Source: Chloroflexota bacterium
Lineage (GTDB): Bacteria; Chloroflexota; UBA11872
DNA: 64,000 nt
Reading direction: 5' to 3'
NCBI GenBank assembly: GCA_028873795.1
Contig: JAPPNP010000070.1
Coordinates: forward strand, 1-64,000
A model generated the notes under the pieces. The model was not told where the DNA came from. It was given only the letters and a program-made list of their open reading frames with translations, and did not search any database. This document shows positions 56,500 through 63,969 of this stretch, piece by piece. The translations under genes and the position numbers were made by a program. Within the stretch, counting starts at the first letter, position 1, and each line of letters starts with the position of its first letter.

Positions 56500-57759
56500 A
56501 TGTTCGGCGTCGGACTCGAAGAATTCATCGCGATCATCCTGGTCGCGCTCATCGTCCTGGGCCCCGAGCGGCTGCCCATCGCCATGCGCACGGTCGGCCG
56601 CTGGGTGCGGAAACTGCGCGACATGTCGCGCGAGTTCCGACGCGAGTTTGCCGAAGAGTTCGCCTTCATCCAGGAGGAAATGAGCGAGCTGCGCCGGGAG
56701 GCCGACGCCACCCGCAGCGAGCTGGCGGAGATTCGGCGCGAGCTCGGCCAGACGGTCCAAGAGACCACCGACGAGGTCACAAGCATCAGGGACGATGTGG
56801 TGTCCGACGTGCAGGGCGCGGTCGACGCGGTCAGCGGGCGGGACTCGGCGTCCACGCCCGCCCTCCCGCCGCCAGCCGCGACCACCTCGAACGGCGCGGC
56901 GTCGGCGAACGGCGAGCAGCAGAGCCCGAGCATGCCGGCGTTCGCTCCGAACGCGGCGGACGCGATGGCGCTCGCCATCTCGGAGACCTTCAGCTCCAAC
57001 GGGGTCACGGCGGCGGACAACGGCGCCGTGGACGCGCCGGAACCCGCGGTCACGACCGACAAACCTCCGGCGCGGCTGGAGGCGTTTGCGCCGGATGTGG
57101 GCGAGCCGGACAGGCCGCCGGACCTGCACCCGGCGGCGCCCGTGCTGCCGCCGCCGCGGGAATCCCTTCCCGAGCCGCCCGCGCCGCCGGCACCCGCCGA
57201 GATGGCCCCGACTCCGGAGGCGGCCCCGTCGGTCGGCATCGGCAAAGTGCCGGAGCCCGGGCTGCGAAATCAGCTGGGTGGGTTCATGCGGCTGATCATC
57301 ATGAAGGCGCTGGAGACTGATTCCGCGTTCCGCGAGCAGGCCGAAGAGGCCCTCCGCGCGCAGGCGCGCGCCGACGCGCTGGCCGCCGCCGAGGGCGAGG
57401 AAGACCCCGACGTTCTCGAGCTGGTGGCCGCGTGGGTGCGCCAGCGGCGCCAGCTGGTCGGCAACGAGAACATCACAGTGCGGCAAAAGGCGCCCGAGTC
57501 GGCGATCGTCGAGCTGTTCGAGTGCCCCTATGGACTCAAGTCCGGCGACGCGCACCCGGTGTGCGACGTGAGCAACGTCTACGACACGGCCTTTTTCGAG
57601 CAGTTCGACATGACCTCGATGTACGCGACGCGCATGTCGGACGGCGCGGCTCACTGCAAGCTGATGGTGGTGACCAACGAGCGGCTGAAGGCGGTGGAGC
57701 AGAGCGAGACGGAAGACGAGACCGCCGAGGCGAAGGAGCCGGCCGAGCCCGCGAGCTGA
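56500..57759 (+). CDS. TatA/B-like membrane protein fused to a three-cysteine C-terminal domain
   Basis: 419 residues in three parts. Residues 1-27 look like TatA/TatB: MFGVGLEEFIAIILVALIVLG then PERLP, followed by an amphipathic and coiled-coil helix (30-110). Residues 115-250 are a Pro/Ala-rich, NG-bearing linker. Residues 255-395 form a globular domain with C342 (ECPYG), C355 (HPVCDV) and C386 (AHCKLMV), the spacing C-P-Y, C, G-x-x-H-C seen in V4R or L-2-amino-thiazoline-4-carboxylate hydrolase-like domains. That domain assignment is from motif memory and needs a profile search. No other tat gene is nearby. Function unknown; the cysteines could bind metal. Confidence 0.8.
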   Translation: MFGVGLEEFIAIILVALIVLGPERLPIAMRTVGRWVRKLRDMSREFRREFAEEFAFIQEEMSELRREADATRSELAEIRRELGQTVQETTDEVTSIRDDVVSDVQGAVDAVSGRDSASTPALPPPAATTSNGAASANGEQQSPSMPAFAPNAADAMALAISETFSSNGVTAADNGAVDAPEPAVTTDKPPARLEAFAPDVGEPDRPPDLHPAAPVLPPPRESLPEPPAPPAPAEMAPTPEAAPSVGIGKVPEPGLRNQLGGFMRLIIMKALETDSAFREQAEEALRAQARADALAAAEGEEDPDVLELVAAWVRQRRQLVGNENITVRQKAPESAIVELFECPYGLKSGDAHPVCDVSNVYDTAFFEQFDMTSMYATRMSDGAAHCKLMVVTNERLKAVEQSETEDETAEAKEPAEPAS

Positions 57760-58154: not shown

Positions 58155-60011
<1,857 letters not shown>

Positions 60012-60283
60012 GCCGGCGTCTCCCCCCGAGCGTGGCCTCTGGCGCGTCGCTCGCGGCGCGCACCATGCCGCCTGGCGATGAACGGCAAGTATACCCCTGG
60101 GCGCGGCGCCCAAGGTGAAGATTCGCACGAAGCGACCGCGGCGCGGCAGGTCGAGCCGCTGAAAGTCTTCGTGAAATCCAAGGGGATCCCAGCCTCCGTC
60201 CGTCGCAATCCTTTCGATAATTCCTACGACGAGCGCACGCCGAACGGATTGGGGCAGCCCTAACCGGTCCTTTGGGACTATCC

Positions 60284-62665
60284 CTAGCGGGCGGGGCCGT
60301 CGTGCCAGCGCCGGGCGAACAGCGCCAGCCGCGATTGGACGATGCCGAAGACCGAGTCCGGGTGAAAGCGTCCGCTCGCGCCGGGTTCCCCGGCGGGAAC
60401 GCCAGTGAGCAACTCGATGCCGCCGCTGATGGTATCCGTGGTGTAGACGTGAAACTGTCCGGCGTCGATGGCCTTGGCCACGTCCCAGCGCAGGGTGAGG
60501 TGTTTGGCATTCGCGGCCGGCAGCAGCACGCCCTGGGCGCCGGTGAGCCCGCGCGCGCGGCACAAATCGAAAAACCCCTCGACCTTCTGGGTCACGCCGC
60601 CGACGGCCTGGACCTGGCCGTGCTGGTTAACCGAGCCGGTCACCGCCACGTCCTGCCACAGCGGGAGGCCGCTCAGGCTCGAGAGCAATGCGTAAAGCTC
60701 GGCGGACGACGCGCTGTCGCCCTCGATGCCGCCGTAGGACTGCTCGAACACGAGGGTGGCGGTGAGGCTCAGCGGACCCTCGATCCCGAATGCGCCGCTC
60801 ACAAACCCGGACAGGATCATGGCGCCCTTGTCGTGGATGGGCCCGGTGAGCTTGGCTTCGCGATCGATGCTGAGCACGCCGTCGCGCCCGGGGTAGGTGC
60901 GGGCGGAAATCCGGTGCACCTGGCCGAAGTCGTAGCCTCCCAGGCCGACGACGGACAGTCCATTGACCTGCCCGACCGCCGCCCCCTCGATCTCCACCAT
61001 CACGGTGCCGTCGGCGATCCGGTCCCGGATCTTTTCCTCGGTCAGGTTGCTGCGGCGGATTCGCTCGTCGATCGACGACCAGACGTGCTCCTCGCTCACC
61101 ACGTCGGCGCCGGCCCGGCGCGCCCAGTGCCCGGCTTCCCTGATGATGTCGCTGAGGTCGCCGAACCGGGTCGACAGGCGGCGGCGGTCCTGCGCCAGGC
61201 GCACGCCTTCCTCAACGATGCGGGCCACGGCCGTGCGGTCGAAGTGGGGTAAGCCTTCGTCGTGGCAGCGGGCGGCGATGAACCGGGCATAGCGATTCAT
61301 GTTGGCGTCGTTGAGGTCGATCTCGGTGTCGAACTCGGCCCGAACTTTGAACAAGTCGCCGAAATCGGGATCGGCGTCGTGGAGCAGGTAGTAGACCCAC
61401 GGCGCGCCGACCAGCGCAACCTTGACGTCGAGCGGAATGGGTTCGGGATCGAGGCGCGCCGGAGCCGCCAATCCCAGGCCTTCCGCCACGGTCTCGATGC
61501 GGATCACCTGGTCGCGCAGCGCTCGCTTGAGCCCGTCGTACGCCGCGGCGTTGGGCAGCACGTCCTCCGCCTGCACGACTAGGAAGCCGCCGTTGGCGGC
61601 GTGCAGCGCGCCGGGCTTGATCATGGTGAAGTCCGTGGTGACGGCACCCATGGCCTGGCGCTGCTCGATCTGGCCAAAGAGGTTGGGATAGGTCGGATGT
61701 CCTTCGCGAACCAGCGGCGCCCCCGTGTCCGGGGCGTGGGTCACGAGGACATTGACTTGATAGGGCAAAAAAGGATCGGCGCGATACCGCGCCGCGGGTT
61801 CTGCCGTCGAGCCGTCGGCCTCGCTCTCGCGGAAGTCTTCGAAGTTCTCGGTGGCGTTCTGCTCGACGGCGTCCAAGTAGGCCGTCACGTCGTCGTGGCC
61901 GCGGTAGGCCTCGCGCAAGTCTTCGAGCAGTGGCCGGACGACGCTGCGGGCGACATCGATGTTGAGCGCATGCAGCCGATCACGCGCCTGGCGTTGCCCC
62001 TGGCGCAGCGCCCGCATGGTGTCCGCCAGCGCATCGTCGAGGACGCCGCGCGCCTGCTGGATGGCGTCACGCTCGGATTCGGGCAGTTGCCGCAGGGCGT
62101 CGGGGGTGAGCGGCTGGCCGTCGCGAACCGCGGCGACGCTGAGACCCACCGGCGTCTGCACGAGCGCATGTCCGGCGGCACGGGCTTGACGGTCCAACGC
62201 CTGGAGCGCCGCCTGCCGCTCGCCCTGTTCCCGCTGGGTGATGGCGCGTCGCTGGACCTCGTATTCGTCGGTGCCAAAGGCCCGCACCATTTCGATTTGG
62301 AGGGCCTCCACCAGGTCGGCCATGCGACGGCGAAGGTCGGGCGCCGCGCCGGGCGGAAGGCGCAGCGCCCGTGGGCGGTGCGGTTCGTCGAAGTTGTGGA
62401 CGTAGCACCAATCGGGCGGGGTGGGGCGGCTATCCGCCACGGCCCGGAGACGCTCGAAGATCATGGACGTTCGTCCGGTACCCGGAAGCCCCATGGCAAA
62501 GATGTTGAATCCGGGGCTGCGGATGTCCACGCCGAACTCCAGCGATCGCTCGGCGCGTTCCTGGCCGATCAGGGCGTCCGGACGCTCGAGCTCGGCGGTC
62601 GACTCGAAGCCCAGCGTGCCCGGGTCGCAGGTCCAACGCACCGCGTCGGCGGATAGCTTGGTCAC
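60284..62665 (-). CDS. Lon-like ATP-dependent protease (AAA_32/Lon_C type)
   Basis: 793 residues from GTG 62665. An N-terminal P-loop region has GLPGTGRTS (59-67) with Arg where Lys is usual; a long helical insertion (about 110-240) follows, then ANGGFLVVQAEDVLPNAAAYDGLKRALRDQ, the AAA-type Walker B/sensor zone. The C-terminal Lon protease domain holds S653 (GDSASSAE) and K694 (GGVTQKVEG), 41 residues apart, near the 43 of E. coli Lon. This family is soluble and distinct from LonA. It lies 272 bases upstream of the FtsH-like gene and is divergent from the dehydrogenase gene. Confidence 0.9.
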   Translation of the reverse strand: MTKLSADAVRWTCDPGTLGFESTAELERPDALIGQERAERSLEFGVDIRSPGFNIFAMGLPGTGRTSMIFERLRAVADSRPTPPDWCYVHNFDEPHRPRALRLPPGAAPDLRRRMADLVEALQIEMVRAFGTDEYEVQRRAITQREQGERQAALQALDRQARAAGHALVQTPVGLSVAAVRDGQPLTPDALRQLPESERDAIQQARGVLDDALADTMRALRQGQRQARDRLHALNIDVARSVVRPLLEDLREAYRGHDDVTAYLDAVEQNATENFEDFRESEADGSTAEPAARYRADPFLPYQVNVLVTHAPDTGAPLVREGHPTYPNLFGQIEQRQAMGAVTTDFTMIKPGALHAANGGFLVVQAEDVLPNAAAYDGLKRALRDQVIRIETVAEGLGLAAPARLDPEPIPLDVKVALVGAPWVYYLLHDADPDFGDLFKVRAEFDTEIDLNDANMNRYARFIAARCHDEGLPHFDRTAVARIVEEGVRLAQDRRRLSTRFGDLSDIIREAGHWARRAGADVVSEEHVWSSIDERIRRSNLTEEKIRDRIADGTVMVEIEGAAVGQVNGLSVVGLGGYDFGQVHRISARTYPGRDGVLSIDREAKLTGPIHDKGAMILSGFVSGAFGIEGPLSLTATLVFEQSYGGIEGDSASSAELYALLSSLSGLPLWQDVAVTGSVNQHGQVQAVGGVTQKVEGFFDLCRARGLTGAQGVLLPAANAKHLTLRWDVAKAIDAGQFHVYTTDTISGGIELLTGVPAGEPGASGRFHPDSVFGIVQSRLALFARRWHDGPAR

Positions 62666-62785
62666 GCCCGAGGGCGGGCTAGGCGCGTCGCGGCGAACGG
62701 GATCGGTGGGCAGCGGAGCGCCCTCGGGATGGAACGCGGCGAAGTCTAGCAGTGGGCCCGGCGGCAGCCGCCTACACTGTCGCGC

Positions 62786-63772
62786 GTGCGCCGCAACGTC
62801 GACGAAACCGAGGAAGCCTTGAACGTTGTGATCGACTACCCGTTGGGCACAAGCGCCGACTGGGATCCGATGCGGGCCGAGTTTCCGGACGACGAGTTCA
62901 CCTGGACCGCCAAGCTCGAAGCGTCTTTCCCTGCATTGCGCGAGGCGGAGGTCATCGGCTCCGGGCGGCCGCTGGGGCCCGGCGTGCTCGACGCGGCGCC
63001 GAACGTGCGCTGGGTCCAGGTCTTTTCGGCGGGCGTTGAGGAATATCTGAAATCTCCAGGCCTCCTGGAGCGCGATCTGGTGTTGACCAACGTGAAGGTC
63101 GTGCTGGGCAGCCACGTCGCCGAAACCGGCATCGCGCTGCTCACGGGCCTGTCGCGCGGCATCGCGCCGGCGGTGCTGGCTCAGCAGGAAGAGCGCTGGG
63201 ATCCGTCGATTCAGGTGGACGAGCTGACGGGTAAGCGAGCGCTGGTCGTCGGGGCCGGCGGCATCGGCCGCGCGCTGGCCCGGCGGCTGGACGGTCTCGA
63301 GGTCGAGGTGCGCGCCGTGGACATCTATCCGCAGGAGCCCGACGCCTACATCCGCGAGGTGCGGCTGGTGAGCGAGATGGCCGACATGCTGCCCGAGACG
63401 GACATTCTCGCGATTTGCTGCCCCAGCACCGCCGAGACCCAGCGTCTGATTGACGCGAGCGTGTTCGACCTGCTGCCTGACGACGCCTATCTGATCAACA
63501 TCTCGCGCGGCGCGGTGGTGGACACGCCCGCGCTTGTCGACGCCCTGCGCAGCGGCAGGCTGCGCGGCGCGGGCCTCGACGTGCTCGACCAGGAACCGCC
63601 GCCGGCCGGCCACCCGATCTGGGGCTTTCCCAACGTGATGATCACGCCGCACAACGGCGGCGCGTCGCCGCTGCGCGTGGCCCGGATCCGCGAGTTCTTC
63701 GCAAGCAACCTGCATCGCTACAAGGCGGGCGAGCCGCTGGAGAACGTGGTGGACGTGGAGGCTGGATTCTGA
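62786..63772 (+). CDS. D-2-hydroxyacid dehydrogenase (NAD-dependent)
   Basis: A 328-residue enzyme of the D-isomer 2-hydroxyacid dehydrogenase family. NAD motif VVGAGGIGRALARRL (about 155), active-site Arg in LINISRGAVVDTPALVDAL (about 237), Glu in GLDVLDQEPPP (about 262) and His in MITPHNGGASP (about 291). The substrate is unknown; relatives act on glyoxylate, hydroxypyruvate or phosphoglycerate. Start GTG 62786, only seven bases after TACACT (62773-62778), so it may be leaderless. Confidence 0.92.
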   Translation: MRRNVDETEEALNVVIDYPLGTSADWDPMRAEFPDDEFTWTAKLEASFPALREAEVIGSGRPLGPGVLDAAPNVRWVQVFSAGVEEYLKSPGLLERDLVLTNVKVVLGSHVAETGIALLTGLSRGIAPAVLAQQEERWDPSIQVDELTGKRALVVGAGGIGRALARRLDGLEVEVRAVDIYPQEPDAYIREVRLVSEMADMLPETDILAICCPSTAETQRLIDASVFDLLPDDAYLINISRGAVVDTPALVDALRSGRLRGAGLDVLDQEPPPAGHPIWGFPNVMITPHNGGASPLRVARIREFFASNLHRYKAGEPLENVVDVEAGF

Positions 63773-63797
63773 GGGGTGGCTGACGGTTCCAGGTTTG

Positions 63798-63858
63798 ACC
63801 GGACTGGATTCCCGCCCCGTATCGAGTGTGGGGCAGGCTCTTCGCTCGAATGACGGAG
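63798..63858. repeat. GGATTCCCGCC...GAATGACGGA repeat with insertion, copy 8
   Basis: Starts GACCGGACTGGATTCCCGCC and ends TCGAATGACGGA like the other copies, but about 30 extra bases (including GTGTGGGGCAGGCTC) sit in the middle. This may be a hybrid of two repeat families. Confidence 0.55.
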
Positions 63859-63886
63859 AAGGCGCGAGCGACGGAAATGACAGAGA

Positions 63887-63969
63887 TGTCATTCCGAACG
63901 CAGTGAGGAATCTAAAGGCGTTCTGCCTTCTCCCGGCCCCTTAGATTTCTCGCTCCGCTCGAAATTACA
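63887..63969. repeat. 83-bp imperfect inverted repeat, MITE-like, copy 2
   Basis: The first 30 bases are identical to the copy at 33633-33718. The right arm is diverged (CTCGCTCCGCTCGAAATTAC). It occupies the end of the window after the dehydrogenase gene; nothing coding is seen in 63773-64000. Confidence 0.8.

Follow-up and report, generated by a model that had tools for sequence, protein, structure and literature searches.

In the window, that is, the whole stretch of 64,000 nucleotides of Chloroflexota DNA that was analysed, we identified a gene whose product very probably joins TatB to a C-terminal domain of the ATC_hydrolase/MetOD1/SufR-C-terminal superfamily (Table 1). The tail domain, of about 140 aa, carries three cysteines with a conserved spacing, and the fusion recurs throughout the family and the order to which this genome belongs. 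A tail that holds a cofactor on its three cysteines and thereby links Tat export to cofactor or redox status is an explanation of this architecture that we regard as evenly poised between right and wrong.

The TatB head and the layout of the protein

The forward-strand frame is free of stops over 419 aa, has a GC3 of 0.89-0.92 throughout and shows codon-position GC contents typical of coding sequence. An initial annotation of this DNA had described a Tat-like N terminus and, beyond a long linker, a C-terminal domain in which C342, C355 and C386 occur; this anatomy was confirmed by translation. In comparisons with three congeners, dN/dS was 0-0.09 for the head (residues 1-110) and 0.04-0.12 for the tail domain (residues 253-398), while the linker showed the highest values of the ORF (0.20-0.36). 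The protein thus consists of two constrained parts with a loose linker between them, and both the TatB head and the three-cysteine tail are under purifying selection. Identity to relatives drops from the TatB head to the charged helix (residues 51-110). Residues 253-320, the helical first segment of the tail domain, are 94-97% conserved within the genus and 45-55% between genera.

Table 1. Coordinates of the TatB gene, its parts, nearby genes and relatives with UPF0175 or UPF0175-like tails (window positions unless a locus is named)
Feature	Position	Strand	Basis or remark
Whole gene: TatB with C-terminal three-cysteine domain, 419 aa	56500..57759	+	ORF; full-length conservation in 19/19 family genomes; purifying selection
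TatB head, residues 2-74 (transmembrane helix, G-P-E-R-L-P, amphipathic helix)	56503..56721	+	TIGR01410 and PF02416 above cut-off
Charged coiled-coil-like helix, residues 51-110	56650..56829	+	Weak coiled-coil-type Pfam matches; sequence reading
Pro/Ala-rich linker, residues 111-252, presumably disordered	56830..57255	+	Low identity among relatives; highest dN/dS
Helical N-terminal part of tail domain, residues 253-320	57256..57459	+	Conservation; helices in low-confidence model
Cysteine-bearing alpha/beta part of tail domain, residues 321-392	57460..57675	+	Profile-profile match to ATC_hydrolase, SufR, MetOD1
C342 codon, first cysteine of C-x12-C-x30-C	57523..57525	+	Kept in all readable Cys-bearing tails
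C355 codon, second cysteine	57562..57564	+	Kept in all readable Cys-bearing tails
C386 codon, third cysteine	57655..57657	+	Kept in all readable Cys-bearing tails
FtsH-like gene (AAA plus Peptidase_M41)	58155-60563	-	Convergent with tatB
LonB/LonC-like gene (AAA_32, LonC_helical, Lon_C)	60284-63892	-	Convergent with tatB
UPF0175-tailed TatB ORF, family f3	L122:6362-7987
TatB ORFs with a weak UPF0175-like tail motif, family f4	L124:6508-7446; L126, L128, L129, L130

The N terminus, previously read as TatA/TatB-like, withstood comparison with the profiles of both families: residues 2-74 matched TIGR01410 (tatB) with 66.1 bits (cut-off, 56.5), and residues 4-49 matched PF02416 (TatA_B_E) with 25.2 bits (cut-off, 21). 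Residues 1-110 alone scored 29.9 bits against PF02416. The genome of the window encodes one short TatA (C59) and one TatC (C36), and the 419-aa ORF is its sole other PF02416 match. Judged by its sequence, the ORF is therefore a genuine TatB, the only TatB-like protein of the genome and the presumptive partner of TatC.

The same arrangement was observed across the class. A long TatB-like ORF of at least 267 aa was present in 39 of the 41 genomes analysed; the copy in G034 measures 160 aa, the ORF being cut by a contig end, and no long TatB match was found in G026 and G029, which are 89% and 77% complete. These long ORFs scored above or near the TIGR01410 cut-off in nearly every genome, and most of the genomes also encode a separate short TatA. 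That the protein is not a working TatB but a TatA/B-like anchor on an unrelated sensor, the real TatB having been missed in gaps of an assembly of 89 contigs, is highly improbable given one long TatB-like protein, at or near the cut-off and beside a short TatA, in nearly every genome of the class. The head resembles TatB in its transmembrane helix, its G-P-E-R-L-P motif and its amphipathic helix. The protein as a whole differs from E. coli TatB, which has 171 aa and is predicted to be mostly random coil from residue 96 (PMC9436932), in that a conserved domain follows.

Distribution and cysteines of the tail domain

Other proteins with the same two-part architecture were then sought, as the initial annotation had proposed; they were found in other genomes, and their neighbours were listed. 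The fusion was present, with one copy each, in 19/19 genomes of the family, 24/24 of the order and 30/41 of the class, and spans three lineages of one Chloroflexota class. Since head and tail occur together in all genomes of the family and the order, the fusion is more than a chance event. In a second lineage (f5), the tail is only about 16% identical in the cysteine region and has the same layout. The three-cysteine tail sat on the TatB ORF in every case read, and a stand-alone tail domain was never found in the class, where every occurrence seen was at the end of TatB. Outside the class, a sample of 400 Chloroflexota genomes yielded no three-cysteine tail domain; the single extra match that this sample gave inside the class, in G026 (family f4), was weak and lay in a frame with a stop.

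The spacing C-x12-C-x30-C was observed in 35 of the 37 tail sequences and in all 27 readable intact tails. The other two of the 37, which belong to genera g3 and g6 (family f2), carry D, A and T at the three cysteine places. The cysteines are thus either all present or all gone, indicating that they act as a set, and we consider it probable that they form one metal or redox site. Moreover, two genera keep the fusion without the cysteines, so that the tail must have a cofactor-free use there. The tails of g3 and g6 group together in the tree, a grouping to be read with caution because of long branches, and a single loss of the cysteines in the common ancestor of the two genera would be the simplest reading.

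These data also bear on the C-P-Y...C...G-x-x-H-C motif noted at the outset. The three cysteines are conserved in C-terminal homologues together with their spacing, but the histidine is not: residue 385 in Cys-bearing relatives is H, S, R, Q, F or W, and the histidine was consequently rejected as a fourth ligand. In the f5 tails (A3, L086-L091), an extra cysteine was seen soon after the second conserved one (C-x2-C), where a fourth ligand is possible.

Elsewhere in the class, the three-cysteine domain is replaced at the end of TatB by UPF0175-type sequences. The TatB ORF of family f3 ends in UPF0175 (31.6 bits; cut-off, 27.9), and the TatB tails of family f4 finish in a helical motif resembling UPF0175, with weak matches (E 0.005-0.05) or none. 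Taken together with the three-cysteine tails, this indicates that the TatB end carries different domains by lineage within one class. The idea that all long TatB tails of the phylum carry domains was rejected, since those read from other classes end in low-complexity sequence. We know of no report of a three-cysteine or UPF0175 domain on TatB, and none was found in the open-access literature that was searched.

Affiliation, candidate ligand and proposed role of the tail

The tail was compared with known families by profile-profile comparison (hhalign), using partner alignments assembled from Chloroflexota members that searches for each family had retrieved. It matched ATC_hydrolase at 95.6%, the SufR C-terminal domain at 55% and MetOD1 at 51%, with the cysteines in register in the alignments printed. 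As controls, 60 column-shuffled alignments per family gave no more than 2.1%, and reversed alignments no more than 0.13%; the controls of the ATC_hydrolase comparison reached at most 0.3%. When the cysteines were masked, the match to ATC_hydrolase stayed at 54% while those to SufR and MetOD1 vanished, showing that the relation to ATC_hydrolase is not based on the cysteines alone. Taken separately, the f1/f2 tails matched ATC_hydrolase at 95% and the f5 tails at 85%, and the two groups matched one another at about 98%; each group alone gave a weak match to SufR (7-12%), and ATC_hydrolase was the best match for each. The alignments of ATC_hydrolase, SufR and MetOD1 also matched one another, and MetOD1, V4R and ATC_hydrolase have been reported to be related and to share a cluster of three conserved cysteines (PMC5847659). 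Both observations support placement of the tail in this superfamily. By sequence comparison, the C-terminal part thus showed a similarity that is remote but controlled, and membership of the tail in the ATC_hydrolase/MetOD1/SufR-C-terminal superfamily is supported, whereas membership of any one family is not.

Indeed, no tail reached the gathering score of PF14196 (ATC_hydrolase; 28.1 bits), the best single tail having an E value of 0.0037, and no gathering-level PF14196 match was found in the genome of the window or in the sampled genomes of the order. Similarly, the gathering score of MetOD1 (PF18546; 23.8 bits) was not reached by the window protein (13.8 bits) or by the best tail (E 0.006), and neither the window protein nor the tails matched V4R (PF02830). 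The 419-aa protein gave no match to TIGR02702 (SufR) and lacks the winged-helix DNA-binding N terminus, its head being TatB. A sequence search of the PDB with the tail profile returned chance-level matches only, and an AlphaFold2 model of residues 247-400, based on a four-sequence alignment, gave a mean pLDDT of 44 with no residue above 70 and thus no confirmation of the fold. The label V4R/ATC-hydrolase-like given to the domain in the initial annotation therefore holds at the level of the superfamily, but is backed by no Pfam gathering score, and the cysteine spacing is unlike that of the V4R protein MsvR.

Each of the related families shares some features with the tail. ATC_hydrolase (PF14196) is the best profile-profile match, with the three cysteines aligned and a final G-x-x-C, but the first cysteine gap is x12 in the tail as against mostly x18-20 in the collected ATC_hydrolase proteins, and the tail sits on a membrane protein. 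The SufR C-terminal domain shares the C-P, the x12 first gap, about x27-30 to the third cysteine and the final G-x-x-C, but the head here is TatB and the profile match is only moderate. MetOD1 has three cysteines in common with the tail, to which it is weakly matched. A 147-aa stand-alone ATC_hydrolase-type protein (L176:1468-1911; CPLGL...C...AEGDPYC) with a pattern resembling the TatB tail was noticed in a small Chloroflexota genome.

Cysteine spacing bears directly on the nature of the ligand. In the Fe-S cluster repressor SufR (Rv1460), function depends on C203, C216 and C244 (x12, x27), and the protein has been reconstituted with an Fe-S cluster (PMC6034842). In the archaeal regulator MsvR, the V4R cysteines C206, C232 and C240 (x25, x7) modulate redox-dependent DNA binding (PMC3729527). 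The first gap of the tail (x12) is that of SufR and the second is x30, compared to x27-28 in SufR, so that the spacing is nearer to the Fe-S ligands of SufR than to MsvR, and an MsvR/V4R-like arrangement was rejected on this ground. The genome of the window also encodes a SufR-like regulator (TIGR02702, E 1.9e-25, below the model cut-off) at L232:2688-3335, which carries C-x12-C-x27-C and whose adjoining ORFs read, by eye, as a cysteine desulfurase and an A-type Fe-S carrier. Spacing and regulator together favour Fe-S, by analogy, and our tentative preference for an Fe-S cluster over other metals and over a pure thiol switch falls just short of even confidence. Overall homology, on the other hand, favours ATC_hydrolase, a family that includes a hydrolase, and the cysteines may instead hold zinc or act as a thiol switch.

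A thiol redox switch without Fe-S, in which disulfides (or a structural zinc) would reshape the tail and tune TatB to redox conditions as in MsvR, is the less likely reading, even though the redox-dependent DNA binding of MsvR provides a precedent (PMC3729527) and both the three-cysteine cluster common to MetOD1, V4R and ATC_hydrolase (PMC5847659) and the retention or loss of the cysteines as a set would fit it. The main argument against it is again the spacing, which sets the tail apart from MsvR and closer to the Fe-S ligands of SufR.

Tat exports folded, often cofactor-loaded proteins, and TatB has its N terminus outside and its C terminus in the cytoplasm. The tail domain would thus be cytoplasmic and anchored to the TatBC receptor. 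The membrane-extrinsic, cytoplasmic part of E. coli TatB takes part in folding quality control and has chaperone-like activity, and export of native substrates continues when E. coli TatB is truncated to about 50 residues (PMC9436932). The latter result means that the tail need not matter for export, and the former makes a cofactor- or redox-checking tail the best guess. We propose that a domain of a ligand-binding superfamily is joined by a flexible linker to the cytoplasmic end of TatB. Next to the TatBC receptor, its three cysteines would together bind a single cofactor, for which an Fe-S cluster is the likeliest candidate, another metal being the alternative. How the cytoplasmic part of TatB engages folded precursors would then vary with the state, or the redox state, of this cofactor, and export of cofactor-dependent proteins could thereby be coupled to cofactor or redox status. 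That the tail modulates Tat export at all is a suggestion to which we give slightly less than even weight.

Alternatively, the tail may be a module for docking or dimerisation that serves precursor chaperones, or may lengthen the quality-control arm, with structural cysteines and nothing sensed. The two genera with Cys-less tails would fit such a role, as would the UPF0175 domain on TatB in other families, as if the TatB end were a general attachment place. We consider this unlikely, as three cysteines and a spacing kept strictly across tails about 16% identical are more than a scaffold needs. More improbable still is a membrane-tethered enzyme, in which an ATC_hydrolase-like tail would have a small molecule, perhaps one with sulfur, as its substrate, while TatB would serve only as the anchor of this enzyme or be bifunctional. 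Its support comes from ATC_hydrolase being the best profile-profile match, with masked cysteines too; it is opposed by the missed PF14196 gathering score, by the shorter first cysteine gap, by the restriction of the domain to TatB in the class and by metabolic neighbours of tatB that differ between lineages.

The cytoplasmic part of E. coli TatB has been implicated (PMC9436932) in an open question of the field, namely how Tat discriminates between completed, cofactor-loaded precursors and incomplete ones. In the lineage described here, a conserved cysteine domain occupies that very place, and two genera provide a natural variant of it that lacks the cysteines. Whether TatB checks cofactors or redox state can thus be tested directly on a single purified domain and a few mutants. 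If the cofactor-checking reading is true, export of folded cofactor proteins would depend directly on the Fe-S or redox status of the cell. The broader notion of a Tat translocase with a SufR-type Fe-S/redox checkpoint on TatB, whose end would serve as a slot for exchangeable regulatory domains (three-cysteine or UPF0175), is conceivable but rather doubtful.

Genomic neighbourhood of tatB

The next genes after tatB had been described as FtsH-like and Lon-like. Both indeed follow (Table 1), but they lie on the opposite strand and are not immediate neighbours of tatB in the related genomes examined, where the neighbours differ; a linkage to FtsH/Lon as conserved tatB context was thus rejected. 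At the loci examined, tatB was not linked to tatA, to tatC or to any Fe-S gene.

Two further kinds of neighbour were seen. In three loci of family f2, tatB is immediately preceded, in the same orientation, by an ORF of about 520-576 aa for a Lon-type AAA protease (L052:8011-9741, L053:8447-10090 and L055:4466-6031), Lon_C being confirmed by Pfam for L053 only. Several relatives have a Cys-bearing ORF near tatB (L053:10174-10974, L055:3507-4421, L059:5149-5979 and L060:3942-4763), which was assigned to DUF6062 by Pfam in L053 and by resemblance at the other loci.
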